Part shown: in pieces, positions 8,525 through 28,612 of the stretch
Layout: each line of letters starts with the position of its first letter
How positions within the stretch are numbered: the stretch's first letter is position 1
Assembly: GCF_034274695.1 (NCBI RefSeq)
Contig: NZ_CP128362.1
Coordinates: forward strand, 496,001 to 560,000
Direction of reading: 5' to 3'
Origin: Chitinophaga sp. LS1
Lineage (GTDB): Bacteria > Bacteroidota > Bacteroidia > Chitinophagales > Chitinophagaceae
Length of the DNA: 64,000 nt
Notes under the pieces: generated by a model
What the model was told of the DNA's origin: nothing
Database searches by the model: none
What the model saw: only the letters and a program-made list of their open reading frames with translations
Position numbers and translations under genes: made by a program

Positions 8525-8527
8525 ATA

Positions 8528-9148
8528 CTATTTATTATTGACGGTTACATCAGTATTATCAATTATGGCCCATCGTTCAATCAAAAAGCCATGCGGATTA
8601 TTCTCTGTACGGGTATTCAGGTCTCTAATAAACCCATCTGTAATGAGGTTACGTATCACTGTAGAAGTTGGCCTAACAATGCGTAATTTTCCATAATACC
8701 GAAAAGAATAAGGGTATTGGTTAATATCAATATGAACACTGTCGCAGGAAACTTCCTGGCTAATATTGCCAGACACCACCTGATCATAATAGCCCGCTTC
8801 CTTTAAATCATCATATTGGGCTTTAGCTGATTTATCAACCAGGTACATTGCCTTGCTTAGGCCAGACTGTATAGCTTTCTCATCTGGTGTAAGAGAAAAG
8901 AAAAGGCTATGAAACACTTTAATGTGATCGGTGGCTTCTACTGGAATATTATCCTTTCTCGTAGCGGAAACTGCCTGAATAGCTTTGCCGTCTATTATTA
9001 CGAATACCTTTTGTTGCGCATCGCCTGCGTACCGATAACTCCTGTAGATGGTATAACAGGTAATAATCACCGTTGCAATGATAAGCACAGCTGTAAACAG
9101 TCGAATATGTTTAAAAGCCGTTTCTATATTCTTGAATTGTTGGAACAT
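8528..9148 (-). CDS. traK: Conjugative transposon protein TraK (VirB8-like)
   Basis: 206 aa from the ATG at 9148 (MFQQFKNIETAFKHIRLF); an in-frame M three codons upstream is less likely. One membrane helix at about 19-40 (AVLIIATVIITCYTIYRSY). The periplasmic part contains QQKVFVIIDGKAIQAVSATRKDNIPVEATDHIKVFH, a hallmark of TraK. The family has a VirB8 fold and helps assemble the inner-membrane part of the mating pore. The gene lies 42 nt after traJ. Confidence 0.9.
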   Translation of the reverse strand: MFQQFKNIETAFKHIRLFTAVLIIATVIITCYTIYRSYRYAGDAQQKVFVIIDGKAIQAVSATRKDNIPVEATDHIKVFHSLFFSLTPDEKAIQSGLSKAMYLVDKSAKAQYDDLKEAGYYDQVVSGNISQEVSCDSVHIDINQYPYSFRYYGKLRIVRPTSTVIRNLITDGFIRDLNTRTENNPHGFLIERWAIIDNTDVTVNNK

Positions 9149-9190
9149 AACACACATTTATCATTCTACACACTTACAATACGGCTCCCT

Positions 9191-10264: not shown

Positions 10265-10293
10265 AACTACTCAATTTTAAACAGGTATATAAA

Positions 10294-10917
10294 TCAATTC
10301 AAATCATGCAGCGTTTCCAATCCGCTGTTCTCGTTATTTTCCCGAATGAGGTTTACCATGTACGTCCTGGTGTCAATGTTGAATAACCTTAAAAAGGTAA
10401 GTTTGCCTTGGAGATCATCATAAATTTTATCAATAGCCTTTAAACGTTCATCATCCGACATTCTCAGTGAACCTGAAGTAATGACCATTGTAAGCTCAGA
10501 TAAATTCCTAACTGAACCTTCGTATAAGCTGTTAAAAACACGGCTGATATAATCACGATAGGAGCCTTGAAACACACTGGCAGATCCAAATGTTTTCCAG
10601 GCTTCTTTACCCTCCTGAAGTATAGCTACCTGACAAGAAATAATATCGGCTACACGCCTGTATTTTTTCACCTCCGGGCTTACGATGTAAAGACCATCTA
10701 AAAAGACCTCATGTAACTTATAGTTACCGCTGGCAACGTCCTTCACTTTGTTATAGCCATCAGAAAGGACTTTATATCCCTTATACATATCCTGCAATAT
10801 GCTCTTCAACTGGGCTAACTTTTCAATATTCAATGCCAATTGTGCCAACTCAATTGCTTGCGCGCTTCCAGACCTGGGCAATAATAACAACAGCAAAAAA
10901 CCTACACACCATTTCAT
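10294..10917 (-). CDS. Secreted conjugation-associated protein (TerB-like annotation family), paralog of upstream gene
   Basis: 207 aa from the ATG at 10917; the GTG at 10923 is also in frame. The signal peptide MKWCVGFLLLLLLPRSGSAQ is followed by AIELAQLALNIEKLAQLKSILQDMYKGYKVLSDGY, a helical pattern found in a family next to TraI and TraJ in Flavobacteria/Sphingobacteria-type CTns. LRMSDDERLKAIDKIYDDLQGKL near 150-172 also occurs in the neighbouring paralog. It is probably periplasmic and pilus- or VirB5-related by position. The start is 2 nt after the previous stop. Confidence 0.7.
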   Translation of the reverse strand: MKWCVGFLLLLLLPRSGSAQAIELAQLALNIEKLAQLKSILQDMYKGYKVLSDGYNKVKDVASGNYKLHEVFLDGLYIVSPEVKKYRRVADIISCQVAILQEGKEAWKTFGSASVFQGSYRDYISRVFNSLYEGSVRNLSELTMVITSGSLRMSDDERLKAIDKIYDDLQGKLTFLRLFNIDTRTYMVNLIRENNENSGLETLHDLN

Positions 10918-10919
10918 AA

Positions 10920-11564
10920 TCACTTCTTAATGCTTAACAAAGTTTGTAATCCTTCATTCTCAGCCGCCTGCTTTCCCACGTTCTGATCCGTAAAAATCAC
11001 CAGCTGATAATACCTGCCTGCGTCTGCGGACTGAACGCGATTGGCATTGATTGCGGCATTAATTCTTTCAATGCGTTCGTCATCCGTCATTTGCAGGCGT
11101 CCGCTTGTGGTCACTGCAATAAGATCATCCAACGTAGCGGAGATTTTACCCATCAGTGTGTCTATGCAGCGTGAATAATATTCTCGTTGAGCAGGGAGAA
11201 AACGACTATTCCCTGTCATTCGATGCTTTGCTTCGGTGCATAGTTTGAAAGAAAAGGCTATATTATTTGCCGCCTCCAATAAGGGCGCATAGTGCTGTAT
11301 ATTGGGATTGACCTGTTTTAAAGAGTTAAAATAATCGCTGTGCAAGCTGAATTCCCCGTTTTTAATATCATAGACAGCATTTAAGCCCCCCTTCGCTATA
11401 TCATATCCTTTCTTAAGATAGCCGGCATACACCTGGAAAGCTGCTATCTGTGCCAACAGGTATTTTGTCTGTGTCTTTTTCTGGTTAAACCATTCATCCC
11501 AGGTCTGAGCATATCCCAAACGAGATATGGAGAGCAGCAACAACAATAAGATTACAATTCTCAT
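10920..11564 (-). CDS. Secreted conjugation-associated protein, tandem paralog
   Basis: 214 aa with signal peptide MRIVILLLLLLSISRLGYAQ. The mature part has KKGYDIAKGGLNAVYDIKNGEFSLHSDYFNSLKQVNP and RLQMTDDERIERINAAI, matching KGYKVLSDGYNKVKDV...KLHEVF and LRMSDDERLKAIDKI of the next gene. Helical, periplasmic, unknown mechanism; such genes lie between traI and traJ in related elements. The 139-nt gap to traI is unusually long for this operon and could hold an internal promoter. Confidence 0.7.
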   Translation of the reverse strand: MRIVILLLLLLSISRLGYAQTWDEWFNQKKTQTKYLLAQIAAFQVYAGYLKKGYDIAKGGLNAVYDIKNGEFSLHSDYFNSLKQVNPNIQHYAPLLEAANNIAFSFKLCTEAKHRMTGNSRFLPAQREYYSRCIDTLMGKISATLDDLIAVTTSGRLQMTDDERIERINAAINANRVQSADAGRYYQLVIFTDQNVGKQAAENEGLQTLLSIKK

Positions 11565-11703
11565 ACGGATAAATTAAAAAAGTAAACACATAGGTTGATA
11601 ATATCGCTTTATGGCATATTATCTAAAACGCGTGGTAGACGTTCCCACAGCCGACAAAGGTATATGCCTGAACATATACAGCGCGATTACAGGAAATTTG
11701 GCT

Positions 11704-12381
11704 TCATTCAAGGTTTCCGTATAACCGACGCAATGCAGCCAGATCGTTTTGATCCTTAGCCCTGTTAAAAGCCTTCGCCTTATTACTACTATTATACTGA
11801 CGCAAATCACTACAATTTTCATCGATAGCTTCCCCAGCTCGATGTATAAGAGCCAGACGTGCGGCATCGTTCATCTGCGTCAGGAAGGAATTTATAACCA
11901 GATTAACCGATTTAAGATTTTGTGCACTTTGCGTTAAAATACCGTCATACACCTCGGCCATGTGCTCAACTTCATCAGGGGTAAAATGGCTATCGCTCTT
12001 AAAAAGACTGTAAGCCTCCTTATACTCATCGATCATGTCTGCCTGCTTTTGAATGATGACCTTTATTTCCTGGTAGTAAGTAATAACGTTTTTAACCTTT
12101 ACCAGTTCGTCGTAATAGACCTGGTAAAGCTCCTTCTGCTTTGTCACCCAGCCTGATATTTCATCCAGCTTTAGTTTCGACAACGTATTCTCGATTGCCT
12201 TCTGAGCATTCTGAAGACCGATGGTTTTGTTTTGCATTCGTTGAACCTGCAAATCAATCGCCTTTATGATCTTTTTTGCAGCGGCCTTCACCACCACCCA
12301 AACGATTGCATGACTTTTTTGAGTGGGTGCAACCGTCAGCATGGCAGACAAAAAGAGCGCTATAATTAGTGACCTCTTCAT
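11704..12381 (-). CDS. traI: Conjugal transfer protein TraI (DUF4141-like, VirB5-type by position)
   Basis: 225 aa. The signal peptide ends near SHA (residue 25), then IVWVVVKAAAKKIIKAIDLQVQRMQNKTIGLQNAQKAIEN, which is characteristic of TraI in Sphingobacteriia-type CTns. Long coiled-coil-like helices fill the middle. LSKLKLDEISGWVTKQKELYQVYYDELVKVK at about 68-98 supports the call. It is exported to the periplasm and probably assembles at the pore or pilus tip. It should not be confused with the TraI relaxases of F plasmids. Confidence 0.8.
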   Translation of the reverse strand: MKRSLIIALFLSAMLTVAPTQKSHAIVWVVVKAAAKKIIKAIDLQVQRMQNKTIGLQNAQKAIENTLSKLKLDEISGWVTKQKELYQVYYDELVKVKNVITYYQEIKVIIQKQADMIDEYKEAYSLFKSDSHFTPDEVEHMAEVYDGILTQSAQNLKSVNLVINSFLTQMNDAARLALIHRAGEAIDENCSDLRQYNSSNKAKAFNRAKDQNDLAALRRLYGNLE

Positions 12382-12392
12382 TTTAATAGATT

Positions 12393-13022
12393 CTATTTAA
12401 GAAAACTGAAAACACATTTCTTTGGATTTGCATTCACTCGCTTATACAATTCCGAAATAGCTTTATCAGCCGGGTAGTAAACAGCACCGGCAGAAAGGTC
12501 AACAGTAATTAACAGCTCTTTTGGCAGTACATAAAAGGCATCGTGCGTCAAATAAAATGATCCCAACATGGATAGAGGCAAGTAGTTTAAGGCAAGATAA
12601 ATGCCTATATGCCTGTCTTCATTTGAAGGCGAAGAAATGATCCAACCCAATTTTTCTACTACTGCGTATGTACTGTTCCAGGCATCCAATCGGCTGCGAA
12701 CATCCCCGGCGTACCGTTCATTCCACGGCAATTGCTTCAGATCTTCTTCCAGCGTTTTAATACACACTGAACCTATATAAACCCCTTCAAAATCTCTGTT
12801 CATCAATATCGCAGAAGTATACGAGTCAAGATGGTAACAGCCAGCCAGATCCCTATTGAAATCAATCTTAAAATGAAAATTGGCTTTATCTTCTCTTTTC
12901 CGGCAATAGAGTGAAAAATTGGGTGGCTCTTTTTCAGCCATCAAATCAATTTCACTTGTAGGTAATAACGTATCAAACCCTAAAGCCACCAACATCGACT
13001 TTGCAAAGAATGTATCACTCAT
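12393..13022 (-). CDS. Hypothetical protein between TraG and TraI
   Basis: 209 aa from the ATG at 13022, no signal peptide. It looks like a compact alpha/beta protein: FSLYCRKREDKANFHFKIDFNRDLAGCYHLDSY (34-66), LGWIISSPSNEDRHIGIYLALNYLP (about 125-150) and LLITVDLSAGAVYYPADKAISELYKRV near the C-terminus. I do not recognise the family. It is tightly spaced with traG (17 nt) and traI (11 nt), so it is in the operon core, perhaps as a cytoplasmic partner of the TraG ATPase. Confidence 0.65.
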   Translation of the reverse strand: MSDTFFAKSMLVALGFDTLLPTSEIDLMAEKEPPNFSLYCRKREDKANFHFKIDFNRDLAGCYHLDSYTSAILMNRDFEGVYIGSVCIKTLEEDLKQLPWNERYAGDVRSRLDAWNSTYAVVEKLGWIISSPSNEDRHIGIYLALNYLPLSMLGSFYLTHDAFYVLPKELLITVDLSAGAVYYPADKAISELYKRVNANPKKCVFSFLK

Positions 13023-13039
13023 ACAATTTATTTTAAGGA

Positions 13040-15565
13040 TTATGCCGCCATGACCATTTCCTGGATGCCTTTCTCCATGCTGCCATGTATTGCTGCCAAC
13101 TTCTGCACGTTAGTCTTCTCAGTCTGTTCGGTGGTGTAGGCATAATATTCCTGACGGGATACTTCCGTTCTGTATACCTTACTAACTGTTCCACCTAAAC
13201 TGATAAATACTTCTTTGTATTTCCTTCCGGGTTCATTTGCTTTGTTCATACTTAATATGAGGGCCTTTTCCTTATCAGTAAGACCCAAAAGCTCTTGAAT
13301 TTGGTCAAACTTGTTCTGATACTTGCTTTGATCGAGAAGGATTTTTGTATCACTATTATTGATAATGGCTTGCTTCACAATAGGGCTTGCAATCATATCG
13401 TCTGCTTCCTGTGAAACAACAATTGCTTCACCATAAAATTTCCGTACGGTTTTGTAGAGGTATTTAATATATTCCGCGAATCCATCTTTCATCAATGCTT
13501 TCCACGCCTCTTCAATAAGGATTACTTTGCGAATTCCCTTCAGCTTTCGCATCTTGTTTATGTACAGCTGCATCACCGTGAGTACGGCTGCTGTAAACAA
13601 AATTTGATTATCCTTAATATTATCAATTTCAAAGACTATGAACCTTTCATCCAAAAGGTTTAAATTCTCGGAGGCGTTCAGTAGAAAGTCAAATTCGCCA
13701 CCGGTATAGTAAGGTTTCATGACGAATAGGAAATTATTTACGTCAAAATCCCGTTGCTGTAGCTTTTCGGCCTCTAAAACAGACACATACTCGTCCCTGA
13801 AAAATTCATAGAAGCTATTGAAGCAAGGAAATACCTGGCTATTGGCATCCAAAAAGGCATAGTAGGCCGTCAAGACGTTCGATAACGCGACATATTCACT
13901 ACGTTTAAATGTTTCGGTGTCCTTCTTCCATAAAGCTAACAGTAGTGTTTTGATACTTTCCTTTTTCTCGGTATCCAGGGTATCCCCAATGGAAATGTAG
14001 AAGGGATTGAACTTAATCGGGTTTTTCTCTTCATAGGTAAAGTAATAACCGTTAACAAGCGAACACAATCCGGAATACGAGTGGCCTACATCAACTATGA
14101 CCACATGTGCCCCCTGTTCGTAACAAGAACGCATGTATGCATTTGTAAAAAAGCTCTTACCCGATCCGGATGGTCCAAGAATAATACGATTAAGATTTTG
14201 AATTACCCCATTGGCCCGTGGAGCCAGGTCGAGATCGACAAATAGTGGCTTACCAGATATACGATCCGCTAAACGAATGCCTACGGGAGCAATAGAAGTT
14301 TCCGCGCAACTTTCCTGGTTAAAGAAACATACAGCCTGTTCGGAAAAGGTAGAAAATGTTTCATTCATGGGCAGGTCTGCAGCGTTTCCCGGTAGTCCTG
14401 CCCAGAACAGTTGTGGTGCACCATTAATTTCCAGATTAGGCACCGCATTCATTTGGGTAAGAGACGCTGCGACTTTATTGCGCAAATCTTTTATACCTGC
14501 CTGGTCATCCGACCATGCCAATATATTGAAATGACCACGTACAAATTGACGCTGTTCACTAATTGCCTCATTAAGGAAATCATTTGCTGCATCCCGGCTG
14601 ATGCTATTCTCCCTTGAATAATTGGAAAGAGACTGCATCCGTCTGCGCTTCGCCTCCAACGCTTTGGTTTCTTTAAGGGGATCTTGTACAACTATGTACT
14701 GATTATAAATATGATTGCAACTTAAAAGCTGGCCTACCGGTGAAGCGAACCCGACAAAGAACTTCGTTTTATCGGTAGAATACTTGTCATTCTGTATTTT
14801 CGGACTGCAAACAGATGGCAGGTTCTCCACATCACTTAAAGTATACAGTTGGCAAAATTTTTCACCAATTCTCAGATCAGGTTTGAAGGTTATGTCCTTT
14901 ATTTCCGGCGTATCACCATCGGCTGACAGGAAAAGATATTTTTCAAATAAGCCTGGCAAATCTTTATTACCCACCAGGTCGGATGCGGTCAACATGCGGG
15001 ATTTAATGGCCCCACTTGCTGTTATGAGCTTTTCAAATTGACCGGCTTTATCCTGAAAGTTCTGTAATACAGCAGGATTAATGGTCTGAGGCGGTACAAA
15101 AGAATTCCTTAGTAAGTTGGAGAGTACAGAACTGGCGGGCCTCCTTCCTTTTACAGGCAAGGTCAGCATAAGGTAGCAATGATGGTCTAAGTAAGGGCGT
15201 TCATGAAAGTACTTTTCACTACTGTAACTTAGGAAAGTATGATTATCCCGATCAAAGTCTCCTTTATATACCCTATCGACGTACCAATCCTGCTTGTGCA
15301 GAATGGTTCCGGTAGGCAGGATGCGTATCGCTTTTACCCATGCATGATGAATTGCATCCAGGTCCTCCTGACTTGATGTAAATATCTCGGGAAGATGCAA
15401 TTGAAAAGCGACTGTAATGTCACCATTCTTACTGATAATTGCGTCGTTTTCCACTTTATAGATCGGCAGAATGCCGTCTAACTTCTTAGTATTGTTGACC
15501 GGTGGCTTAATTTGCAATACCACGGCGGTCATTATGACCATGACTAACGCTAACACTACTATCAT
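13040..15565 (-). CDS. traG: Conjugative transposon ATPase TraG (VirB4-like)
   Basis: 841 aa from the ATG at 15565 (a GTG precedes it). One N-terminal membrane helix (VVLALVMVIMTAVVLQI). Walker A GPSGSGKSF lies near residue 463 and Walker B VILIEEAW near 680. KKLDGILPIYKVENDAIISKNGD near the N-terminus is typical of Bacteroidota TraG. It powers pilus/pore assembly as the VirB4 homolog at the inner membrane. The gene overlaps the end of traF by about 59 nt. Both ATPase motifs appear intact. Confidence 0.92.
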   Translation of the reverse strand: MIVVLALVMVIMTAVVLQIKPPVNNTKKLDGILPIYKVENDAIISKNGDITVAFQLHLPEIFTSSQEDLDAIHHAWVKAIRILPTGTILHKQDWYVDRVYKGDFDRDNHTFLSYSSEKYFHERPYLDHHCYLMLTLPVKGRRPASSVLSNLLRNSFVPPQTINPAVLQNFQDKAGQFEKLITASGAIKSRMLTASDLVGNKDLPGLFEKYLFLSADGDTPEIKDITFKPDLRIGEKFCQLYTLSDVENLPSVCSPKIQNDKYSTDKTKFFVGFASPVGQLLSCNHIYNQYIVVQDPLKETKALEAKRRRMQSLSNYSRENSISRDAANDFLNEAISEQRQFVRGHFNILAWSDDQAGIKDLRNKVAASLTQMNAVPNLEINGAPQLFWAGLPGNAADLPMNETFSTFSEQAVCFFNQESCAETSIAPVGIRLADRISGKPLFVDLDLAPRANGVIQNLNRIILGPSGSGKSFFTNAYMRSCYEQGAHVVIVDVGHSYSGLCSLVNGYYFTYEEKNPIKFNPFYISIGDTLDTEKKESIKTLLLALWKKDTETFKRSEYVALSNVLTAYYAFLDANSQVFPCFNSFYEFFRDEYVSVLEAEKLQQRDFDVNNFLFVMKPYYTGGEFDFLLNASENLNLLDERFIVFEIDNIKDNQILFTAAVLTVMQLYINKMRKLKGIRKVILIEEAWKALMKDGFAEYIKYLYKTVRKFYGEAIVVSQEADDMIASPIVKQAIINNSDTKILLDQSKYQNKFDQIQELLGLTDKEKALILSMNKANEPGRKYKEVFISLGGTVSKVYRTEVSRQEYYAYTTEQTEKTNVQKLAAIHGSMEKGIQEMVMAA

Positions 15566-15890
15566 CACACATCACATTTTCTGTTAATCGAAGAAATACC
15601 TTCCTTGAAGTAGATAATATTGCAGAAGGCACCCGGCGGTAAGCCATGGCTTTCATCAACCCATGTTCACCATACTTTCTCGAAGCCTGGCTTACCCCTG
15701 TAAACAATGCACCCCCTAAAACACCCACTGTTGGCAACAAAATAAAACCGGGCGCCCCTGCAATATGACCTACGACATAGAGCAGCAATAAAACGATCGC
15801 TCCTATTGCCAAATAAATAAGGTATTGCGCTTTTACGCCTTTTACTTCAAGCGGCTTATTGACACCTTTATTGATCTGATATAGTTTCAT
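15507..15890 (-). CDS. traF: Conjugative transposon protein TraF (DUF4133)
   Basis: 127 aa from the ATG at 15890 (MKLYQINKGVNKPLEVKGVKAQYL), the classic TraF start. The open frame runs further upstream, but that part is not conserved in style. Two hydrophobic segments follow (YLIYLAIGAIVLLLLYVVGHI and GFILLPTVGVLGGALFTGV). DUF4133 proteins are VirB3-like partners of the VirB4 ATPase. The C-terminal 30 residues (MCDDSSVSVSHGHNDRRGIAN) overlap traG and may be non-conserved extension. Confidence 0.88.
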   Translation of the reverse strand: MKLYQINKGVNKPLEVKGVKAQYLIYLAIGAIVLLLLYVVGHIAGAPGFILLPTVGVLGGALFTGVSQASRKYGEHGLMKAMAYRRVPSAILSTSRKVFLRLTENVMCDDSSVSVSHGHNDRRGIAN

Positions 15891-16029
15891 TCTTAAGACA
15901 TTATAAGAAAACATAAACAGGAACACCCGGCATTCAAACACACTTTCCATCTACAGGTCTATACTTATGCCAGGAGAACAACACGAATCAATAATCACTG
16001 CATAGACCTCACAAACGCGGGCATTCCTG

Positions 16030-16137
16030 TTATGTATTGGTGGGTACTAACCGCAGCCAAGCCGGCTGATAGCTGGGGCATGCTTCATCATCATGCCCAA
16101 AATGGTCCGGTCCTTTTCCCCAAGAACGTGCTTTCAT
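16030..16137 (-). CDS. Possible 35-aa ORF coupled to traE
   Basis: The ATG at 16137 directly follows the traE TAA, with no gap. It encodes MKARSWGKGPDHFGHDDEAC and 15 more residues, ending TNT. It is His/Asp/Gly/Pro-rich with no membrane segment. The perfect stop-start abutment suggests translational coupling, but the length is short. The remaining 139 nt to the traF start hold nothing recognisable. Confidence 0.3.
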   Translation of the reverse strand: MKARSWGKGPDHFGHDDEACPSYQPAWLRLVPTNT

Positions 16138-16476
16138 TTATACTTTAAAGAAGCCTTTCAATATCGTAGCCACTACCACCAAGAAAATACACGCACCGAA
16201 CCAGCTGCTAGCTACTTTCGAGGTATCCTGATCTCCGCTTGACCACTTGTTATATACCTTCACAGCCCCCACGATCCCTACCAGAGCACCTATTGCATAC
16301 ATGAGGTTAACAGCAGCGGGAAAGTAACCTTTGACGGCGGTTTCGGCAGCGGTTAAACCATCCTGCGCATATAACTTTGATATTCCTGCCATTGCGGCAA
16401 CGAACAAAAATGTAAGTTTCCTTCTCGAAAAGACATGATCCCTCACACGAACCCATGCACCACACAGTCGTTTCAT
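16138..16476 (-). CDS. traE: Conjugative transposon protein TraE (DUF4134)
   Basis: 112 aa. The N-terminus is basic then hydrophobic with a signal-like segment ending YAQ (about residue 38). The mature part, DGLTAAETAVKGYFPAAVNLMYAIGALVGIVGAVKVYNKW, has two membrane helices with the second near the C-terminus (WFGACIFLVVVATIL). This is the DUF4134/TraE pattern, a VirB2-like pilin candidate. First recognisable core gene of the operon; it lies 45 nt after the upstream gene. Confidence 0.92.
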   Translation of the reverse strand: MKRLCGAWVRVRDHVFSRRKLTFLFVAAMAGISKLYAQDGLTAAETAVKGYFPAAVNLMYAIGALVGIVGAVKVYNKWSSGDQDTSKVASSWFGACIFLVVVATILKGFFKV

Positions 16477-16521
16477 TACAATATGTATTTAACTTGAAAA
16501 AATAAGAGAAAAGCAATGCTA

Positions 16522-17040
16522 TTAAGCAGCTGGAATTAGCGCGTCCGCTTCAGCGGTTGAAAGCTCCAAACCAGCTACCTCAGATGCTTTCCGGGTAATC
16601 ACATTAGCCAGCATTGTTCTATAAGGAGGTGCATGCAATACAGGAGCTGAAGCGACTTCCTGTGTAATGTTTGCGAAAAGCAGTTCCCTATCCATATCAG
16701 TTCCAGCATTTTCCAATAGAATCTCAATGTTATCCACTACCAAAGACATGGTATCCAGGGCTTGTTCTTCCGGTCCTGGTTCAAAAACAAATCCCGGTTT
16801 TGGGATTGGCTCCGCTTTAAGTGAATTAGATAATGTTGCATTTTCGTTTACCGGGGTCTGGTCAATTTCGTCTGGTTCTTCCTGCGTTTCGACATGCCAT
16901 ACCCGCTTTGAAGGGGTGGGCGGCGGCCCACTCTTCCATAACACTTTACCAAATCGCAACATCACGTAGCCGTAATACACTGCCGCCGCACCACCCAACA
17001 AAGTGAAAAACTGCCCCCAACTCATAATTCCTGCTAACAT
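16522..17040 (-). CDS. Membrane-anchored hypothetical protein, first gene of tra operon
   Basis: 172 aa from the ATG at 17040; a TTG one codon upstream is also in frame. One N-terminal helix (GQFFTLLGGAAAVYYGYVMLRF), then a Pro/Glu-rich linker and a helical C-terminal domain (MDRELLFANITQEVASAP...LPYRTMLANVI-type pattern). Similar small anchored proteins precede traE in Sphingobacteriia-type CTns. It may be a tether for assembly proteins. As first gene it marks the operon 5' end, and the promoter should lie in 17044-17240. Confidence 0.65.
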   Translation of the reverse strand: MLAGIMSWGQFFTLLGGAAAVYYGYVMLRFGKVLWKSGPPPTPSKRVWHVETQEEPDEIDQTPVNENATLSNSLKAEPIPKPGFVFEPGPEEQALDTMSLVVDNIEILLENAGTDMDRELLFANITQEVASAPVLHAPPYRTMLANVITRKASEVAGLELSTAEADALIPAA

Positions 17041-17043
17041 CAA

Positions 17044-17243
17044 TATTTTCGTTTTGCGTTATTAATATGTTTGTCAATCATCACGACACAAACATACATT
17101 CAGCAGGAAGAGAAAATATACACCGAGTATACAGGTCTATAAGATTTCTTGTCTTGGTATTATAAAGCCCAATTATGTTCGAGCGTATCTCAAGTATTAC
17201 ATAGATTCATCTTTGCAATAATAAAGTTTAAATAAAAATATGG
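17044..17243. promoter_or_regulatory. Intergenic with probable divergent promoter of tra operon
   Basis: The AT-rich 200 bp between the start of the tra operon (minus) and the peptide module (plus). On the minus strand TATATTTT (around 17117-17124) resembles the Bacteroidota -7 box TAnnTTTG, but no good -33 TTTG is seen at the right distance. An imperfect inverted repeat TATAC-ACCGA-GTATA is at about 17128-17142. No gene is visible. Confidence 0.35.
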
Positions 17244-17297
17244 GGTTACTCCCTAAAATCACCGGTTCACTCCCTAGAAAGAACTGTTTACTCTATT
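17244..17297 (+). promoter_or_regulatory. Three 21-bp-spaced direct repeats, candidate LytTR operator
   Basis: GGTTACTCCCTA (17244-17255), GTTCACTCCCTA (17265-17276) and GTTTACTCTATT (17286-17297) share the pattern GkTnACTCyCTa and start exactly 21 bp apart. LytTR-family regulators bind direct repeats placed two helical turns apart. The third repeat ends two bases before a predicted -33 element. The linked operon encodes a LytTR regulator (20031-20780), so autoregulation is the simplest reading. Binding itself is inferred. Confidence 0.65.
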
Positions 17298-17299
17298 AT

Positions 17300-17330
17300 T
17301 TTGAAATCTTACAAGTATGGGTTAATTTTA
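17300..17330 (+). promoter_or_regulatory. Bacteroidota-type promoter of the peptide operon
   Basis: TTTG at 17300-17303, a 19-nt spacer and TAATTTTA at 17323-17330 match the -33 TTTG / -7 TAnnTTTG consensus with one mismatch. Transcription would start near 17337, about 25 nt before the peptide ATG at 17362. Confidence 0.6.
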
Positions 17331-17361
17331 TATCAGTTTGTAACCAATAAATACACATCTT

Positions 17362-17562
17362 ATGAAAACACCTAAAATGCACAACGGGAAAGCATTATTA
17401 TTATCAAAAACAATCATTTCGAACTTTGCCCCTTATAATATTAAATATTCTAATGCCAACACTCCTAAGGAATCTCAGTTTATATGTGATTCTACTGTTG
17501 AACCAATTTGCCGAGGAGTAGTAAAAAATATTCATGCGCAAAAGTTAAAAGAGAATATTTAA
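17362..17562 (+). CDS. 66-aa Cys-containing peptide, candidate RiPP precursor or signal peptide
   Basis: MKTPKMHNGKALLLSKTIIS leads the peptide. LLLSKTIISNF resembles the L-x-L-x-K-x-T-I-x-x-L leader motif of Bacteroidota class I lanthipeptide precursors. The C-terminal half has Ser/Thr and two Cys (ICDSTVEPICRG at about 47-58) and a basic tail. There is no secretion signal. It has its own predicted promoter with LytTR-like repeats upstream. The S41 peptidase follows after 49 nt, then a kinase and regulator. No modification enzyme or exporter is encoded nearby in this window, so a modified product is uncertain; an unmodified signalling peptide is the alternative. Confidence 0.6.
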   Translation: MKTPKMHNGKALLLSKTIISNFAPYNIKYSNANTPKESQFICDSTVEPICRGVVKNIHAQKLKENI

Positions 17563-17611
17563 CGTTTACAATGCCAATAAACTAAACTTTCAACTCAATT
17601 AATCATTAAAA

Positions 17612-19030
17612 ATGCAACGGATAATATTACTCTTAATTATCTGCAATGTATTCTTGTGTTTAAAATTAAAAGCACAGGAATGTAATTGTAGCACAAACCT
17701 TGATACACTAATAAGCGATATAGAAAATAATTATGTGGGCTTTAATATAAAAACGAAGGAAGAAAAAGCGCATGATTATAAAACCCTAATTAAAACCCTT
17801 CGTGCAAAATCACACAATTCTGACCATTATAAATGCTATTTACTATTGACAGAATATGCAAACTTTTTTAATGATCCACATTTAAAGGTACTAACAACCA
17901 AATTGGGACCAACCAATAAATACTACGATTCATTAAAAATTATGTTTTCTAAACTTGCAGTTGAACATATCAATCTTGACTCAATAATAAATTATTATCA
18001 TGAACACGACACCAATAATACCTTAGAAGGAATTTGGAGTCTGCCTGAATTCAACTATAAGATAGTAATTGTAAAAACAAACACAGCAGAAAGATATAAG
18101 GGTATTGTAATAAAAGCAGACAACTTTAAATGGTATAAGGGACAAGTTAAAATGGTATTGTCTGGAAAAAATCCATATAATATTCAATTCTATATTGCCG
18201 ATCACACTCAAAGAAATGCAAAAGCATTAGTAGAAAATAATACTATGAACCTCGGTGAACTCGGAACATGGAGAAAAGAACAAAAAGGAATTCAAATAAA
18301 TTCGGACAAAGAAGATATAATATATTTCAAATATTTGTCCAGCCAAACATCTCTGCTAAGAATAGGAAGTTGTGATATCCGTTTAAGAGATACCATTAAT
18401 GAAATTATAGGAAAAAACTGGAAAGAAATTACGGGAAGGAATAATTTAATTATCGACATTCGGAATAACACTGGCGGAAGCATTATGACATTAGATACAC
18501 TTATTAGGCTATTTTATATCAAACCAATTCTTACAGACGGTCTATATATTAAATCTTCTAAGGAAAATATATTATTGTATACGGAAGCCTTGAACAATCC
18601 AGAATTTAATGATAAAGAAAAAAGAAATTTCCAAGAAGTAATTGATAGCCTGAGAGCTCACCTAGGTGAAATAACTCTGGTTTCAAAGCCAGATTCTATT
18701 GTCCTAAATGGAACCGTTAATCCGAAAAAGATCGCAATAATAACGAACTCCCGAACAGGAAGTGCAGCGGAGCTATTTACATTATACGCCAAACAAAGCA
18801 ATAAGGTTATTGTAGTCGGCGAACATACTAATGGTGCATTAGATTATACAGAATTAGGGAGAAATCGAAATTTACCTTGTCCAATGTGGCAATATATTTG
18901 TCCTATGGGCATGTCAACTCATATATACAAACCCTTGATCGACAATATTGGAATTATACCTGACCAAAAAATTCCTTACAATATTGATTGGATAAAATGG
19001 ACTCAAAAATATCTCGAATATGATAATTAA
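17612..19030 (+). CDS. Secreted S41-family peptidase
   Basis: 472 aa with a signal peptide ending near KAQ (residue 22), then Cys 24/26. The S41 core contains LIIDIRNNTGGS (about 285) and NSRTGSAAELF with probable catalytic Ser384. NDPHLK places His90 where NSR-type Ser-His peptidases have their His. The usual tail-protease Lys region (FGKG) is NGALD here, so a Ser-Lys dyad is unlikely. No PDZ domain is seen. It could cleave or remove peptides in the periplasm, plausibly the product of the gene just upstream. The stop overlaps the kinase start by 11 nt. Confidence 0.8.
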   Translation: MQRIILLLIICNVFLCLKLKAQECNCSTNLDTLISDIENNYVGFNIKTKEEKAHDYKTLIKTLRAKSHNSDHYKCYLLLTEYANFFNDPHLKVLTTKLGPTNKYYDSLKIMFSKLAVEHINLDSIINYYHEHDTNNTLEGIWSLPEFNYKIVIVKTNTAERYKGIVIKADNFKWYKGQVKMVLSGKNPYNIQFYIADHTQRNAKALVENNTMNLGELGTWRKEQKGIQINSDKEDIIYFKYLSSQTSLLRIGSCDIRLRDTINEIIGKNWKEITGRNNLIIDIRNNTGGSIMTLDTLIRLFYIKPILTDGLYIKSSKENILLYTEALNNPEFNDKEKRNFQEVIDSLRAHLGEITLVSKPDSIVLNGTVNPKKIAIITNSRTGSAAELFTLYAKQSNKVIVVGEHTNGALDYTELGRNRNLPCPMWQYICPMGMSTHIYKPLIDNIGIIPDQKIPYNIDWIKWTQKYLEYDN

Positions 19031-20030
19031 AGGGTTAAATAATTCACCTTGGATTCATGTCATTTTCTGGTTATTATATTCGTTAATGAACTATGGTATT
19101 ACCTATATTCACTACGGAGGTGATTGTCATATATGGGATACAGTATTTAAGTATTTTTTTGCGGCGTGGATGTTTTATGCGACATCTTCGCTAATATTTC
19201 CTTATTATTTAAAAAATAAAAACTGGATCAAATTAACATTGTCCATGTTAGTATTATTGGTGGTGACCTATGTGATAAGAGAATTTATTATTATTTATAT
19301 CTACCCATTGTTTATGACCGAAAGAACTCCATATACTCATACGGAATCCTTTATAATGCATTTATATTGGTATACACAATATTCAATGTTGGGAATTGGA
19401 TATTGGTTTGGAAAACAAACAGTTATAAAAAAGTGGGAAATAACGAAACTCGAAAAAGAGGTAATAGTAACTGAATTCCATGCATTGAAAGCTCAAATAG
19501 ACCCTCATTTCTTGTATAATACTCTTAATTTCTTTTACTCGGAAGCGCTTGAATATTCGCCTTCTTTGGCAGAAGGTATTATCGACTTAAGCGATGTTAT
19601 GAGATATTCGATAGAGAAAAAGGAAGATCATAATGGGGAGATATTGCTAATTGATGAAATTACCCACATTGAAAAGCTATTGACCTTATTTAATTATAGA
19701 TTTAACGATTCAAGTCTAATAACATTTAACAAATCTGGAAATCTAAAAGACCTAAAAGTTCCCCCTTACATTTTAACCATACCAATTGAAAATGTATTTA
19801 AACATGGAGATACGACCCAGGAAATATTCATTGATATCAACTTTGACGATTTCAGTTCGTCTTTATTAATTTACATTGCAAATAGTAAAGGCTTAAAGGT
19901 AAGTCCCTCAACAGGTTTAGGCTTGGAAAATCTAAAGAAGAGATTGCATTATCATTATGCAGATAAACACATATTAACTGTAAATGAGAATGCTCAAACT
20001 TTTGAAATAACCATTGAAATTATGTATTAG
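19020..20030 (+). CDS. LytS-type membrane sensor histidine kinase
   Basis: 336 aa. Four hydrophobic segments in residues 10-140 (HVIFWLLYSLMNYGITYI, FFAAWMFYATSSLIFPYYL, LTLSMLVLLVVTYVI, YSMLGIGYWFG), no large extracellular domain. The HisKA_7TM-less PF06580 phosphoacceptor motif QIDPHFLYNTLNF has His163, and the N-box is PIENVFKHG. G-box GLGLENLKKRL is near the C-terminus. It should phosphorylate the LytTR regulator that begins directly at the next base after its TAG. The ligand is probably membrane-embedded or small. Confidence 0.88.
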   Translation: MIIKGLNNSPWIHVIFWLLYSLMNYGITYIHYGGDCHIWDTVFKYFFAAWMFYATSSLIFPYYLKNKNWIKLTLSMLVLLVVTYVIREFIIIYIYPLFMTERTPYTHTESFIMHLYWYTQYSMLGIGYWFGKQTVIKKWEITKLEKEVIVTEFHALKAQIDPHFLYNTLNFFYSEALEYSPSLAEGIIDLSDVMRYSIEKKEDHNGEILLIDEITHIEKLLTLFNYRFNDSSLITFNKSGNLKDLKVPPYILTIPIENVFKHGDTTQEIFIDINFDDFSSSLLIYIANSKGLKVSPSTGLGLENLKKRLHYHYADKHILTVNENAQTFEITIEIMY

Positions 20031-20780
20031 ATGGAAAGTAAACTTTTATGTTACATATTAGAAGATGAAGTGGCAGCGGTTAATATATTAAAAAAGCATA
20101 TTGAAAAACTATCTGACATCGTGGACTTAGTAGGGTACACATCTGATTTTTTAGTGGCAAAATCTATTCTGGATAGCATAAAAATCGATATATTATTTCT
20201 GGATATTAGGTTACCCAAAACCACAGGATTCAAATTTCTGGATCTCTTACAAAGAAAACCCCAAATAATATTAACAACAGCTCATACAGATTATGCCTCT
20301 GAATCTTATGAATATAATGCTGTAGACTACTTAATGAAACCCATTAGCTTTGAAAAGTTTGAAAAAGCGGTATTTAAGGCAATTGGGAAACAAGATATTA
20401 ACAGCAATACTATACAAAAAAGTTTGCTGCCAAAAAACAAGAAGTATGTATTAATAAAAAATAGCGAGAATAATAGAATATTGAAAGTCAATTTTAAGGA
20501 AATAATATACCTAGAATCAAAAAACAAATCAACAATTTTCAAAACTATAAATCAAGATATCCAATCTAGTTATGTATTGGGTCAATGGGAAAGAAATTTA
20601 CCGGAAAATGATTTTTTAAGAATACACAAATCATATATAATAAATGTAAATTTTATAGAATCAATTGAAAAAGGAAAAGGGAATATCAAACTAGCAAACA
20701 TCGATAAACCTTTCCCAATAGGGGATCAATATAAAATAAAATTCCAGAACCATATAGATAATAATAGCGTACAGCTATGA
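20031..20780 (+). CDS. LytTR-family response regulator
   Basis: 249 aa. Receiver domain 1-120 with acidic residues EDE at 11-13, phospho-acceptor Asp58 in LFLDIRLP, and the conserved Lys in LMKPISF. LytTR DNA-binding domain about 140-245: IIYLESKNKSTIFKT, FLRIHKSYIINVNFIE. It starts at the base after the kinase stop. Regulators of this class recognise direct repeats about 21 bp apart; such repeats lie upstream of the first gene of the operon at 17244-17297. Confidence 0.92.
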   Translation: MESKLLCYILEDEVAAVNILKKHIEKLSDIVDLVGYTSDFLVAKSILDSIKIDILFLDIRLPKTTGFKFLDLLQRKPQIILTTAHTDYASESYEYNAVDYLMKPISFEKFEKAVFKAIGKQDINSNTIQKSLLPKNKKYVLIKNSENNRILKVNFKEIIYLESKNKSTIFKTINQDIQSSYVLGQWERNLPENDFLRIHKSYIINVNFIESIEKGKGNIKLANIDKPFPIGDQYKIKFQNHIDNNSVQL

Positions 20781-20947: not shown

Positions 20948-21802
20948 ATGATTGAAAAAGCCAGATCAATGAGGGATGAGCTTCTTAATGAATTTTACGA
21001 GAAAATTCCTCTTTATGAAAAAGATATAATTGAGGCACTACAAAAGGTATCCTCTGATACAGCATATCTTAAATCAATAATGGCGAGTTATAATTTTGAT
21101 AATGAAAAAGACGAGATAGAATTTTATAAGGAAATTAAACCTGAATTCGATAGCACAATAATTTTTTTGTTTAGATTACATTCAATAATACTTAATTGTC
21201 CCACAGCCCACCAGAAACAAATCGACTATTTTGATACTGAAATCATAAAAATTAAAAAGTTCTACTCTAACAACAAAGAATTCCTATTATATTTTAATTC
21301 TGGAAGCACCCATCTTGATAAATTTTACTTTTTAAAAAGAGATGAATTTATATGGATAAACCCAGATGAAGGGATATTATTTGACGAGAGATTTCTTACC
21401 CCTATGTCCTCCAAGATTGCCTGCTTAAAAGCATGGATTAAACTCGAAACTATACTTAAAATAACAATTCAAACCTTAACACCAGTATTGCAAAACGGGA
21501 ATTCCAACTCTCACAAAGAGAATACAGTAATATTAAAATGGACTGGGAAGATAAATGATATAGTTGAATTAGGATATTTCATTTATTGCTCTCGTCAAAT
21601 AAATAATGGCGAAGTTAGCATTAACCAAATTTTTGAATGGATACAATCATCCTTACATATTAATGTGGGAAATCAATATAGAACTTGGCAAGCAAATCTA
21701 ATAAGAAAAAACCCTACGCAAGGAATTGATAAGATGGTGAATAACTATAAGGAATATATAGATAATACTTTATTAAATCCCAGGTATTATAATAATAAAT
21801 AA
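20948..21802 (+). CDS. rteC: RteC-family regulator
   Basis: 284 aa. FYKEIKPEFDSTIIFLFRLHSIILNCPT (about 58-85), FYSNNKEFLLYFNSGSTHLDKFYFLKRDEF, ILKWTGKINDIVELGYFIYCSRQINNGEVSINQIFEWIQ and NVGNQYRTWQANLIRKNPTQGIDKM match the RteC family. In CTnDOT, RteC activates excision genes in response to RteAB. Here no classic RteA/RteB is adjacent; the LytTR two-component system lies just upstream and is a possible functional neighbour. Complete, with a good start at 20948. Confidence 0.85.
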   Translation: MIEKARSMRDELLNEFYEKIPLYEKDIIEALQKVSSDTAYLKSIMASYNFDNEKDEIEFYKEIKPEFDSTIIFLFRLHSIILNCPTAHQKQIDYFDTEIIKIKKFYSNNKEFLLYFNSGSTHLDKFYFLKRDEFIWINPDEGILFDERFLTPMSSKIACLKAWIKLETILKITIQTLTPVLQNGNSNSHKENTVILKWTGKINDIVELGYFIYCSRQINNGEVSINQIFEWIQSSLHINVGNQYRTWQANLIRKNPTQGIDKMVNNYKEYIDNTLLNPRYYNNK

Positions 21803-24948: not shown

Positions 24949-27385
24949 GTGCGACCTGCTAAGGTTATAATTGAATTGTTTTATAAGGGTAAAACCTTAA
25001 GCTAAACCTTTCCCTCCACGGATAGTAGCCTATTAGAGCCTGCGAACCGGGTGACCAGATCGTGGGAAGCCTCTAAGACAATGTACCGAGCAGTTTAAAC
25101 TGGCTTTAATAAGTCGTGAGAATATTTAAAGAATCGATAGACTTAATCGATGTAGGGCTAGGCTGGATGACATGCGTAAGATAACTGAACGAACGTTTGA
25201 ATCATCGTGAAAAATAATGAGCCAAATAAGTTTGACAGGCTTTAACCAAAAGGTAATGATATGGGTTAAACTGCTTTTGAATCAGTTTACGTGGACAATC
25301 AACATATCCGGTGAATAGTTCGACGCTAACTCATCCTTGTTCAATTATGACAACAGGGGAACCCCGTGTACCGCTCTATAACAATAGGGCAGGCAACCTG
25401 CAAAGGAAGCTTATGGGAGGCGGGAGTAAGAACAGGCAAAAAGCGAAGGGCGTTCTGTAATGGAACGTATAGAGGTTGAAATATAACCTTACAGTGAAAA
25501 CTGGCTGACGTGCCTATGGTCCGTGAAACGTAGTTAAGACAGAAGAACTTCATATTTAGAAGGCAAGCAAATGATCGTAATAAATAAAAAACCGGAAACT
25601 CCGATAAATAAAATATTTACGAATGCGGCCATCAGGTCCGCGGAAAGTTGGAACTCCATTAATTGGGGCTATATCCGCGTGATCGTCAAGAAGCTTCAGT
25701 TGAGAATTGCGAAGGCGACACTTGATAGGAAGTTCAGGAAGGTCAAAACCCTTCAATGGCTTCTCACCCATTCTTTATCTGCTAAATTATTGGCTACAAG
25801 AAAGGTTATGCAGAATAAAGGGAGTAAGACTCCTGGAATAGATGGCATCATTATTAAAACACCAGAAACCAAACTAGCCTTAGCTAAAAACCTGAAACGC
25901 AGAGGATATCAACCCTCACCTCTAAGACGCATTTATATTCCAAAGAAGGGCAACAAGAAAAAACTCAGACCTTTAGGTATTCCTACCATCACAGACAGAT
26001 GCCAACAAGGCTTGCATGCACTGGCTCTAACACCTGTATCCGAGGTTACTGCAGATCTTAATAGTTATGGATTCCGACCATATAGAAGCTGCGCAGATGC
26101 TATAAGCCAGGTCTTCAATGCCTTATCAAGGAAAAATAGCTCTCCATGGATATTAGAAGGAGATATCAAAGGGTGCTTCGACCATATCAGTCATAATTGG
26201 TTACGCAATAATATATCCATGGACAAAACCATTATGAATAAATGGCTGAAGGCTGGATTTATCGATATGGGCAAACTATTCCCAACAATCGAAGGAACCC
26301 CGCAAGGCGGCCTTATTTCGCCATTAATGTGCAATATGGCACTTGATGGGATAGGTGATCTATTAAAGAATAAGTTCAACAAGCAGAAAGGCATTAATTT
26401 CATTCGCTACGCAGATGACTTCATCGTAACTTGCCGTTATAAGGAAACATTGGAGAAAGAAATCAAGCCAGCTATCACAGATTTCCTGAAACAAAGAGGA
26501 TTGGAATTATCACAAGATAAAACCAGGATTACACATATCACTGAAGGCTTTGACTTTCTCGGTCAAAATGTTCGCAAATACAGCTCTGGAAATGAACTTA
26601 AACTCCTGATCAAGCCTTCAAAGAAGAATATTCATTCTTTTTTAAAGGATATCAGGAAAGTACTCCGCAAGGCACGTAGTATTACGCAATCCGAACTCAT
26701 TAGGATACTAAATCCCAAAATCATAGGATGGGGAAATTACCATAAGAGTGTAGTATCTAAGGAAACGTTCACAAAGATTGACAACGAAATTTGGAAATTG
26801 ACATATCAATGGGCGAAACGACGTCATTCCAAAAAGACGAAACCGTGGATTTTGCATAAGTATTTCAAAAGGTTTAAAGGAAGGAGTTTTAGATTTAGTT
26901 CGCCTGAAGTGCAGGAAAACGGAACAATACAGGAACAAAGACTCATGTTGATGTCCACCATTCCTATCCGTAGGCATGTAAAGATTCTTCAATCAGCAAA
27001 TCCTTATGAGGAGAAATATGATGAATATTTTGAAAAGCGAATATCTGAAAAGTGGAAAAATAGTAGCAAAAGATTTTATATCGACCGCTATATCAATATG
27101 AATCAAAAAGGGAAATGCCTTTGTTGCTCTGAAGCCCTAATGATTAGTCAAAACTGGTGTATAAGTCTGAAAAGAAAAATCTCAAAGGGAGGAGGCCACC
27201 AATCAGATAATTTTGATGTTATTCATAAAAATGCTATGAAAAATGGCAATCTAAAAGAACTGCATAAGTGAAACCGGCCATCGTCATAAATAGGTGGCTT
27301 ACAACGGGCTTGAGCCGGATGAGGCGAAAGCCTCATGTCCGGTTCTAAGGGGGCAAAAGGGTGGCAACACCCTTAGCTACCCGAT
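24949..27385 (+). mobile_element. Group II intron with reverse-transcriptase ORF
   Basis: The 5' end GTGCGAC (24949-24955) fits the GUGYG consensus. Domain V is seen as GAGCCG...ATGAGGCGAAAGCCTCAT...CGGTTC at about 27312-27345. Domain VI follows with a bulged A in CCTTAGCTACC, and the 3' end is CCGAT (27381-27385). Structured intron RNA fills 24949-25570 before the ORF. It is inserted in sense orientation in the IS transposase gene. Splicing would rejoin the frame exactly. Confidence 0.88.
25571..27271 (+). CDS. ltrA: Group II intron-encoded reverse transcriptase/maturase
   Basis: 566 aa. RT domain with GSKTPGIDG (about 84), PLGIPTITDR, YGFRPYRSC, EGDIKGCFDHI, EGTPQGGLISPLMCN and the catalytic YADD at about 280-283. 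The maturase X region follows (LLIKPSKKNIHSFL). The C-terminus has a CLCC knuckle and GGGHQSDNFDVIHKNA, part of an HNH fold whose first His looks missing, so endonuclease activity is doubtful. It splices and mobilises the intron. ATG at 25571. No frameshifts seen. Confidence 0.92.
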   Translation: MIVINKKPETPINKIFTNAAIRSAESWNSINWGYIRVIVKKLQLRIAKATLDRKFRKVKTLQWLLTHSLSAKLLATRKVMQNKGSKTPGIDGIIIKTPETKLALAKNLKRRGYQPSPLRRIYIPKKGNKKKLRPLGIPTITDRCQQGLHALALTPVSEVTADLNSYGFRPYRSCADAISQVFNALSRKNSSPWILEGDIKGCFDHISHNWLRNNISMDKTIMNKWLKAGFIDMGKLFPTIEGTPQGGLISPLMCNMALDGIGDLLKNKFNKQKGINFIRYADDFIVTCRYKETLEKEIKPAITDFLKQRGLELSQDKTRITHITEGFDFLGQNVRKYSSGNELKLLIKPSKKNIHSFLKDIRKVLRKARSITQSELIRILNPKIIGWGNYHKSVVSKETFTKIDNEIWKLTYQWAKRRHSKKTKPWILHKYFKRFKGRSFRFSSPEVQENGTIQEQRLMLMSTIPIRRHVKILQSANPYEEKYDEYFEKRISEKWKNSSKRFYIDRYINMNQKGKCLCCSEALMISQNWCISLKRKISKGGGHQSDNFDVIHKNAMKNGNLKELHK

Positions 27386-28612
27386 AGCCAGACAAAAAAT
27401 GGGACATGTAATGCGCATTCTTATTTGAAGGGCTTAATGACTTGTCGCCGACGCAATTGCCAGGTGATGGCGGAAGAACTTTCAGACGCCTCACAGCAAC
27501 GCTTACATCATTTTATCACCGCTGGAAAATGGTGCTATAGAAAACTGATGGATAAGGTTACGGTTGACTTCTGGGATTTGTTAAAGGCAAATGGGCTGGA
27601 AGACGATACCTGCCTAATCATAGATGAAAGTGGTAATCCGAAAAAAGGAAAACTTTCAGCAGGTGTAAAGCGCCAATACTGTGGGCAAATAGGAAAAACA
27701 GACAACTGCCAGGTGGGTGTTTTCGGTGCATTATGTGGTGGAAGCCTAGTAAATCTTGTGCAAGCAAAACTATCATTAGGAGCCGAAGCAACTAAAATTG
27801 AGCTGGCAAAGGAAATTATAAATCACGTTGTCTTAGAATTGAAGGTAAAGGCTAAATGGGTATGTTTTGATGCCTTCTATGGCCGTGATGCACATCTATT
27901 ATGTTCACTGATCAAAATGAAATTACCATTTGTAGCTGATGTTCCTGATAACCTTCAGATCTGGTTGGAGCCCTTTCAAATGAGAGTGCCAATCAAACTA
28001 CCAGGAACCAGAGGGCGAAAGAATATTTATGCAAAGCCTAACCGTGATTCAGTATCCATCCGGCTGTACACGGAGAGCTTGAAAAAGAAAGACTGGACAT
28101 GGATGAAGGTACGGCACCAGAGCAAAGGGAAAGTCTTGTTTGCATGGTTTCATTGCCAGGATATTTATATATACAACCCTATAACACAAAAAAGACAGTT
28201 ACTTCAATTATTGATTAGAAAAGATGTTGACGGCACTATGAAATATAGTTTTTGTTACCATCCGGAGCCAACTCTAAGAACACTGGCATATATGCAATGT
28301 AAACGCTTCTTCATTGAGAAATCATTTAGAGAGGCGAAAAAAGAACTGGGATTAAATGAGTATCAGACAAGAAGTAGTGAAAGTTGGCATAAACATATGA
28401 CGATGGTAATGTTAGGGCAGCTTTTTATAAATATTCAAAAAGTCGATTCCTATAATGAGGAGCTCTGGTTGACAACACAGGATTTTATATTACTTGTAAA
28501 ATCTGTTCTCAAAATGACACTGAGAACCATAGAAAATATAATGGTGGCTATTCTTGCGAAACAGCCACCAGACAATAAAAAACTTAAGAAATTATTATTT
28601 ATTCGAATTTGA
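27386..28612 (+). CDS. IS701-family DDE transposase, main exon
   Basis: It begins at the intron 3' splice site; a TTG at 27425 could start a shorter product if the intron does not splice. LIIDESGNPKKGKLSAGVKRQ, CGQIGKTDNCQVGVFGALC and CKRFFIEKSFREAKKELGL are characteristic of IS701-type transposases, including the catalytic first Asp in IDESG. The C-terminal half is intact to the stop at 28612. With exon 1 the protein would be about 435 aa. Confidence 0.8.
   Translation, partial: SQTKNGTCNAHSYLKGLMTCRRRNCQVMAEELSDASQQRLHHFITAGKWCYRKLMDKVTVDFWDLLKANGLEDDTCLIIDESGNPKKGKLSAGVKRQYCGQIGKTDNCQVGVFGALCGGSLVNLVQAKLSLGAEATKIELAKEIINHVVLELKVKAKWVCFDAFYGRDAHLLCSLIKMKLPFVADVPDNLQIWLEPFQMRVPIKLPGTRGRKNIYAKPNRDSVSIRLYTESLKKKDWTWMKVRHQSKGKVLFAWFHCQDIYIYNPITQKRQLLQLLIRKDVDGTMKYSFCYHPEPTLRTLAYMQCKRFFIEKSFREAKKELGLNEYQTRSSESWHKHMTMVMLGQLFINIQKVDSYNEELWLTTQDFILLVKSVLKMTLRTIENIMVAILAKQPPDNKKLKKLLFIRI

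Follow-up and report, generated by a model that had tools for sequence, protein, structure and literature searches.

A candidate peptide switch upstream of rteC on an integrated conjugative element of Chitinophaga

In a 64,000-nucleotide stretch of the genome of the soil bacterium Chitinophaga sp. LS1 (contig NZ_CP128362.1, positions 496,001 to 560,000, forward strand; hereafter the window, in which positions are numbered), an integrated conjugative element carries a cassette of genes for a small precursor-type peptide, an S41 peptidase, a LytS-type histidine kinase and a LytTR response regulator, with the regulatory gene rteC next in line. With moderate confidence, we read this as an autoinduction cassette of the ribosomally synthesized and post-translationally modified peptide (RiPP) type that was rewired on the element as a peptide switch upstream of RteC and would control the element. 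The genes and their order, their recurrence, the leader motif, the repeats ahead of the peptide, the adjacency of rteC in three elements and the integration itself are observed directly; the retention of all five genes side by side in three elements would be most simply explained by a peptide switch feeding RteC. A preliminary description of this DNA had offered three readings, and in our view its 'self-controlled peptide signal' is the best of them.

All five genes lie on the plus strand. The first, an open reading frame (ORF) call, encodes a 66-amino-acid peptide (17362-17562) with the leader motif L12xL14xK16x5F22 and cysteines at residues 42 and 50. It is followed by the S41 peptidase (17612-19030; Pfam Peptidase_S41, E = 2.6e-13), the kinase (19020-20030; His_kinase PF06580, E = 1.1e-18; His163) and the regulator (20031-20780; LytTR, 2e-19, and Response_reg, 3.5e-15; Asp58). 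The S41 and kinase genes overlap by 11 nucleotides and the gap between kinase and regulator is 0 nucleotides; peptide, kinase and regulator are co-oriented and closely spaced, as would be expected for one operon. ORFs and Pfam matches thus bear out the four genes, the overlap and the abutment as first described, and also reveal two neighbours that the preliminary description omitted: rteC, an RteC-family regulator gene (20948-21802; PF09357, E = 3.3e-42) and the fifth co-oriented gene, 167 bp behind the regulator, and the divergent conjugation genes that start at 17043 on the minus strand. A scan for terminator-like sites gave none in the 167-bp gap; window-wide, such sites number 5, versus 2.0 in shuffled sequence, and predicted promoter-like sites are close to the shuffled level (30 versus 25.3).

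The same five-gene order, peptide-S41-kinase-regulator-rteC, is common to the elements of the window, C. silvisoli and C. niastensis, so that rteC is the next gene in all three cassette copies found among conjugation genes. The C. silvisoli element has the same backbone as that of the window (tra-region proteins 47-87% identical, the larger coupling-protein ORF 92.6%), with its cassette away from the beginning of the tra genes. The C. niastensis cassette stands in line between mobilisation and tra genes, in the order relaxase, coupling protein, 279-amino-acid ORF, peptide, S41, kinase, regulator, rteC, tra. Because the S41 proteins of the window and C. niastensis are only 38% identical, the linkage to rteC either outlasted a long divergence or arose twice. 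RteC is present in 42 of 79 Chitinophaga genomes, and six proteins encoded before rteC, picked from 30 Chitinophaga loci, comprise three regulators (one receiver-LuxR, one LytTR and one AraC-type) and three proteins without a Pfam match; judged by position, the cassette appears to occupy the regulator slot upstream of rteC. Published work on CTnDOT describes a comparable arrangement, a two-component system upstream of and acting on rteC in a conjugative element, in which RteA/RteB (through RteB) activates rteC and RteC controls the excision and transfer genes (PMC1976400). The window has a LytS/LytTR pair where CTnDOT has RteA/RteB, and a peptide gene and a protease in addition.

The region ahead of the peptide suggests how the cassette may be regulated. 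Three LytTR-type direct repeats (17243-17296, plus strand; 12-mers at 17243, 17264 and 17285) stand upstream of the putative peptide promoter, their three 9-bp units recurring with an exact 21-bp period 77-119 bp ahead of the start codon, in keeping with the earlier claim that the peptide has its own promoter with regulator-type repeats. Among 60 shuffles, 1 equalled the array of the window and none that of C. silvisoli. A matrix made from the repeat units found no other spaced pair anywhere in the 64 kb, and a scan for spaced LytTR-type pairs in the window and ten loci yielded nothing beyond the peptide promoters, two in number, and a single weak pair at the LanB-associated locus L040. LytTR sites in rteC's own upstream region, a further candidate, found no support in that scan, which showed none there. 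A putative promoter and 5' leader follow the repeats (17300-17361, plus strand), with TTTG at 17300 and 17337, which we take to be promoter elements from the Bacteroidota consensus. Described LytTR sites consist of two repeats of 9-11 nucleotides with spacers of 11-13 nucleotides, through which LytTR regulatory systems autoactivate, and the repeats ahead of the peptide agree with them in length and spacing (PMC4847170, PMC6193735).

From the repeats down to the ATG, conservation between the window and C. silvisoli is strong (28 bp, 17321-17348, are identical), whereas farther upstream in this intergenic region the two are not conserved. This pattern speaks against an improbable alternative, that the peptide is a decaying relic and that a different envelope cue is what the other four proteins (S41 protease, kinase, regulator, RteC) detect. 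Such decay would be in line with the 32% identity and high rate of non-synonymous difference between the two peptides, and with an element on which no exporter was recognised; yet the reading frame, the leader motif and a C-x-S-x4-PICR-like segment persist in both.

Because the conjugation genes begin at 17043 on the opposite strand, the peptide and tra promoters share one intergenic region. Just upstream of the first tra gene it holds a perfect 9-bp inverted repeat with a 13-bp spacer (17066-17096), matched with 0 mismatches where 0.11 matches would be expected at up to 3 mismatches. With 1 mismatch the repeat recurs in C. silvisoli, likewise just before its tra genes, and the pattern is unmatched in the C. 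niastensis locus (L036) and in L189, the part of the same element to the left of the window. This candidate operator could serve RteC or another regulator.

A signal passed between peptide and sensor is also suggested by the way the cassettes have diverged. Between the window and C. silvisoli, identity is 81% for the regulator, 79% for RteC, 58% for S41 and 32% for the peptide, and within the kinase it is 74% over the C-terminal part (152/205) and 50% over the N-terminal part (66/131). Identity that falls from the output to the signal end is expected of diverging peptide-receptor pairs, and the gradient, seen in one pair of elements, looks signal-like. Kinase, regulator and RteC have ratios of non-synonymous to synonymous substitution rates (dN/dS) of 0.07-0.10; the ratio is not computable for S41 and the peptide, dS being saturated. 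Separate trees of the S41, kinase and regulator proteins from 17 modules all group the window with C. silvisoli at 100/100, and in the S41 tree C. niastensis joins G217, the grasp-with-spasm locus (95/89). Grouping the elements requires two changes in each of the S41 and regulator trees and one in that of the kinase. Either, then, the cassette entered elements on two occasions, or other lineages have lost the linkage.

Beyond these elements the cassette recurs. At an E-value cut-off of 1e-3 the S41 protein found matches in 42 of 99 genomes. An S41 alignment found them at 1e-40 in 11 of 19 further congeners and in 41 of 244 genomes of the family, and at 1e-60 in 17 of 395 genomes of the phylum. 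Our locus counts rest on the S41 loci that were fetched rather than on every match, and the motif count on non-redundant loci, after dropping those with duplicate starts or fewer than 600 bases upstream. In 22 of these loci the kinase adjoins S41 and in 81 it does not. A leader-type peptide lies upstream of S41 in all 22 loci with the kinase, 16 with the strict motif LxLxKx5[L/F] and six with near forms read by eye (L035, L043, L044, L170, L186, L187), as against the strict motif in 1 of the 81 without it; these loci are related to each other and therefore not independent events. The order peptide/S41/LytS/LytTR is thus a recurring one, no fetched S41-LytS locus lacks the peptide (0 of 22), the opposite of what the preliminary description had named as a refutation, and the peptide, as first proposed, is a recurring gene with a lanthipeptide-like leader. 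The preliminary description knew of no described system with this exact gene order; as for genomes, the idea that the order is otherwise unknown there finds no support, since it recurs and lies beside LanB at six of 18 well-flanked loci. In the open-licence literature, no title or abstract start was found to show an S41-LytS-LytTR peptide cassette. Outside Chitinophaga the kinase motif occurs at 2 of 42 fetched S41 loci. Counting the query itself, an S41 homologue search returned 22 proteins with E values of at most 1e-20; second to C. silvisoli came a 53% identical relative on a 12.3-kb metagenome contig. A plasmid collection held four S41-matching records, all below 30% identity, and viral contigs none; a scan of genome contigs gave three loci, the third of which (Spongiivirga, 27%) showed no kinase motif.

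For the 18 of the 22 cassettes with wide flanks we could assign genomic settings. LanB (Pfam) adjoins the cassette at six (L038, L040, L041, L043, L048, L187). LanC is confirmed at five of these, L043 being the exception, and a C39-ABC exporter at L041 and L043. Five loci of one type have a LanC-like gene without a recognised LanB nearby; it is Pfam-confirmed at L034, L039, L042 and L045, and the fifth locus, L188, is the same-species copy. L034, which sits in the window's own genome, also has a stand-alone C39 protease. One locus, L186, is a grasp-with-spasm cluster (TIGR04192, 248 bits, and TIGR04193, 314 bits, over cut-off), and three (L037, L044, L064) have no recognised maturase. The remaining three are the copies on conjugative elements (window, C. 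silvisoli L035, C. niastensis L036), likewise without a recognised maturase. At L187, in another genus, the cassette with LanC and LanB (3,462-10,900) lies about 7 kb from an RteC gene (18,291-19,211); this may be an element carrying a full lanthipeptide cluster. L064 (G000:C1, 1.417 Mb; G000 is the 8.67-Mb source genome) is that genome's third cassette copy, with a counterpart, L118, in the same-species genome G111. At L064 and L118 the middle of the S41 protein (roughly profile positions 120-238) is missing, with no stop in the frame, and a nearby LytTR regulator was not detected.

The leader motif LxLxKx5L has been reported for several class I LanA peptides of Bacteroidetes (PMC7268733). 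The window peptide, like that of L034, has phenylalanine in place of the final leucine, and fits the motif only if this substitution is accepted. It passed the cut-off of 0 families among NCBIfam and Pfam lanthipeptide models, and no NCBIfam lanthipeptide model matched the C. silvisoli and C. niastensis element peptides either; among 12 other peptides, 4 that belong to cassettes passed lant_leader_L1a, the NCBIfam model of class I lanthipeptide leaders (cut-off 22 bits), with 35.9, 26.2, 26.2 and 22.2 bits. In a database of 5.77 billion proteins the only match to the window peptide was itself, and PHROGs matches were weak (best E = 0.0012, unknown function).

These results bear on whether the cassette is instead a mobile RiPP locus without maturases, in which chromosomal LanB/LanC and C39 exporters would work in trans to modify and export the peptide, a bacteriocin, the kinase and regulator controlling only its own production and rteC being a functionally unlinked neighbour. 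In its favour, LanB and LanC occur with leader peptides at L078 in the same genome, and at L079, which also has LanB/LanC, the ORFs hint at a split LanB and an exporter of the C39 type; the peptide core has Cys42 and Cys50 with serine or threonine nearby, and the cassette is found in biosynthetic clusters. We nevertheless consider it unlikely, as the three element peptides match no lanthipeptide model and rteC adjoins in every element copy despite the S41 divergence from C. niastensis. The genome's two LanB and six LanC matches all lie outside the element, in agreement with the earlier remark that none is within view. Of the related suggestion of a minimal RiPP locus lacking modification genes, the anatomy fits, whereas the adjacent rteC and the conjugation-gene setting point to control of the element.

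The S41 protease would be an exported component. Its N terminus has a single hydrophobic signal-type segment (residues 4-22), and His90 and Ser384, which by analogy with CPAF we take to be catalytic, are invariant across 13 aligned module members. An AlphaFold model from a 13-row alignment (mean predicted local distance difference test score 85; predicted template-modelling (TM) score 0.77) has CPAF as its best Foldseek match (E = 2.6e-14, TM-score about 0.48); at a root-mean-square deviation of 13 Å the superposition is only partial. The model also matches other S41 structures, some from Bacteroidota. Family profile, predicted fold and conserved residues thus agree that the protein belongs to S41.

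A protease of this kind might also serve a sensor of others' peptides, by which the element reads host or rival lanthipeptides and S41 degrades them, for immunity or eavesdropping, the element's own peptide being a primer or decoy. The fast-diverging sensor end would be compatible with changing targets, and the same genome has two further cassette copies, one of them incomplete. We judge this less probable still than an in trans RiPP locus, given that each of the 22 copies keeps a peptide of its own and that Pfam identified no immunity protein among the five genes (LanFEG-type genes were not searched for). Nothing we found favours the immunity or resistance device against lanthipeptides that had been suggested earlier, within the same limit on LanFEG-type genes.

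Returning to a peptide switch upstream of RteC, the following sequence of events can be envisaged. The LytTR regulator would drive the peptide operon through the three repeats, and a host exporter would carry the peptide out of the cytoplasm, perhaps once a chromosomal maturase has modified it, which is the weakest step. The exported S41 protease may then trim or turn over the peptide, and the N-terminal part of the kinase, as its divergence suggests, may sense the product. By analogy with its family, the kinase would phosphorylate the LytTR regulator, which in turn might amplify the operon and raise RteC, by read-through or otherwise; RteC would then switch on excision and transfer, as it is known to do in CTnDOT. 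More tentatively, and at somewhat less than even confidence, we propose a quorum- or partner-sensing peptide signal for excision and transfer of a Bacteroidota conjugative element, in which a RiPP autoinduction cassette was captured and plugged into RteC, possibly twice, with signal specificities diverging rapidly between elements. If true, this would link RiPP regulation to element transfer; the operon, its promoter repeats and the allelic pair of window and C. silvisoli would form a directly testable system, and the S41-LytS-LytTR trio would mark RiPP precursors missed by current leader models.

Several observations weigh against such a switch. The upstream region of rteC has no LytTR-type repeats in the matrix scan, and nothing comparable precedes the C. 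niastensis peptide, where 49 of 60 shuffles were as good. The arrangement is rare, a cassette-type regulator lying upstream of rteC in 1 of 30 fetched rteC loci (the window and C. silvisoli loci are outside those 30 and add two), and the absence of both rteC and maturase in view at L037, L044 and L064 means that orphan copies exist without element control. The three element copies group as a clade only with the kinase, and then weakly (50/13), but not with S41 or the regulator. The peptide lacks a GG site and is under weak constraint (pN 0.43, pS 0.79, dS saturated, window versus C. silvisoli), and a looser leader pattern fits 20 of the 22 cassette loci but also 8 of the 81 controls. Kinase hydropathy gives only one strong transmembrane-like segment (76-94), and no exporter or further maturase was recognised on the element, as seen through Pfam scans of selected ORFs.

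Among known systems, agr, sil and blp also join a peptide, a kinase and a LytTR regulator in one operon with repeats upstream and with the signal end diverging fastest; the window cassette differs in its S41 protease, RiPP-type leader, adjoining rteC, lack of a dedicated exporter and Bacteroidota host. pCF10 and ICEBs1 likewise encode a peptide thought to govern transfer of the element, but these use imported peptides and cytoplasmic receptors, where the window has a histidine kinase. To our knowledge there is no peptide pheromone system for Bacteroidota conjugation, and titles and abstract starts in the open-licence literature reveal none. LytTR regulatory systems have direct repeats mostly 12 bp apart upstream of their own promoter, but they pair the regulator with a membrane protein rather than with a kinase and peptide (PMC6193735). 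In fungal dikaritin RiPP clusters an S41 peptidase is conserved beside the precursor, although these are eukaryotic, with an unrelated precursor and no two-component system (PMC6514808). The Bacteroidota class I lanthipeptide clusters have a similar leader motif (PMC7268733) and upstream peptide gene and, at 6 of our 18 loci, the same S41-LytS-LytTR cassette beside LanB; the window element has rteC instead, and no LanB, LanC, GG site or recognised C39 exporter.

Integration of the element is evident from an empty site in G111, which joins G000:C1:482,779 to 551,013 with a 7-bp overlap and flanks that align at about 99% on both sides. The element is about 68.2 kb long and ends near window position 55,012. 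The 7-bp overlap is common to its right junction (55013-55019) and its left one, which lies beyond the window near G000:C1:482,779; the two 7-mers differ at one base. The best S41 match in G111 is 31% identical to the window protein, and G111 is therefore without this cassette copy. The insertion target is presumably a ComM/YifB-like gene, from motifs at L189 6,700-6,820 and window 54,990-55,503. At the left end, by the left junction, lies a large serine recombinase with Resolvase and Recombinase domains. The divergent tra run (2740-17043, minus strand), probably a single operon, includes a TraG-type ATPase (13040-15568; PF19044, 2.4e-208) and has relatives in both other elements; a coupling protein in two ORFs and a MobA/VirD2-type relaxase lie at 31984-35555 (minus strand), from a Pfam scan and comparison with the other elements. 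With its RteC gene, tra genes and mobilisation genes, the integrated element fits, as far as gene content can tell, the anatomy of an RteC-controlled conjugative element.

The coupling protein occupies two adjacent ORFs both in the window (31,984-34,024) and in C. silvisoli (L080 15,828-17,858), and a single 669-amino-acid ORF in C. niastensis. Other genes in the region include a multiubiquitin and prokaryotic E2 protein beside a ThiF protein with a weak JAB match (L189 13,493-16,019), which we regard as a bacterial ubiquitin-like gene pair and element cargo. A group II intron reverse transcriptase/maturase (25,571-27,271) is followed by a DDE transposase (27,425-28,612), both from Pfam. Two giant proteins of 1490 and 1704 amino acids are encoded at 44,207-53,705, the former with weak RHS repeats and, near its end, a Pfam Cytotoxic domain (PF09000, E = 1.2e-8), so that it is perhaps an interbacterial toxin. 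A repeat of about 120 bp at 63,045-63,166 has dozens of matches in the same-species genome.

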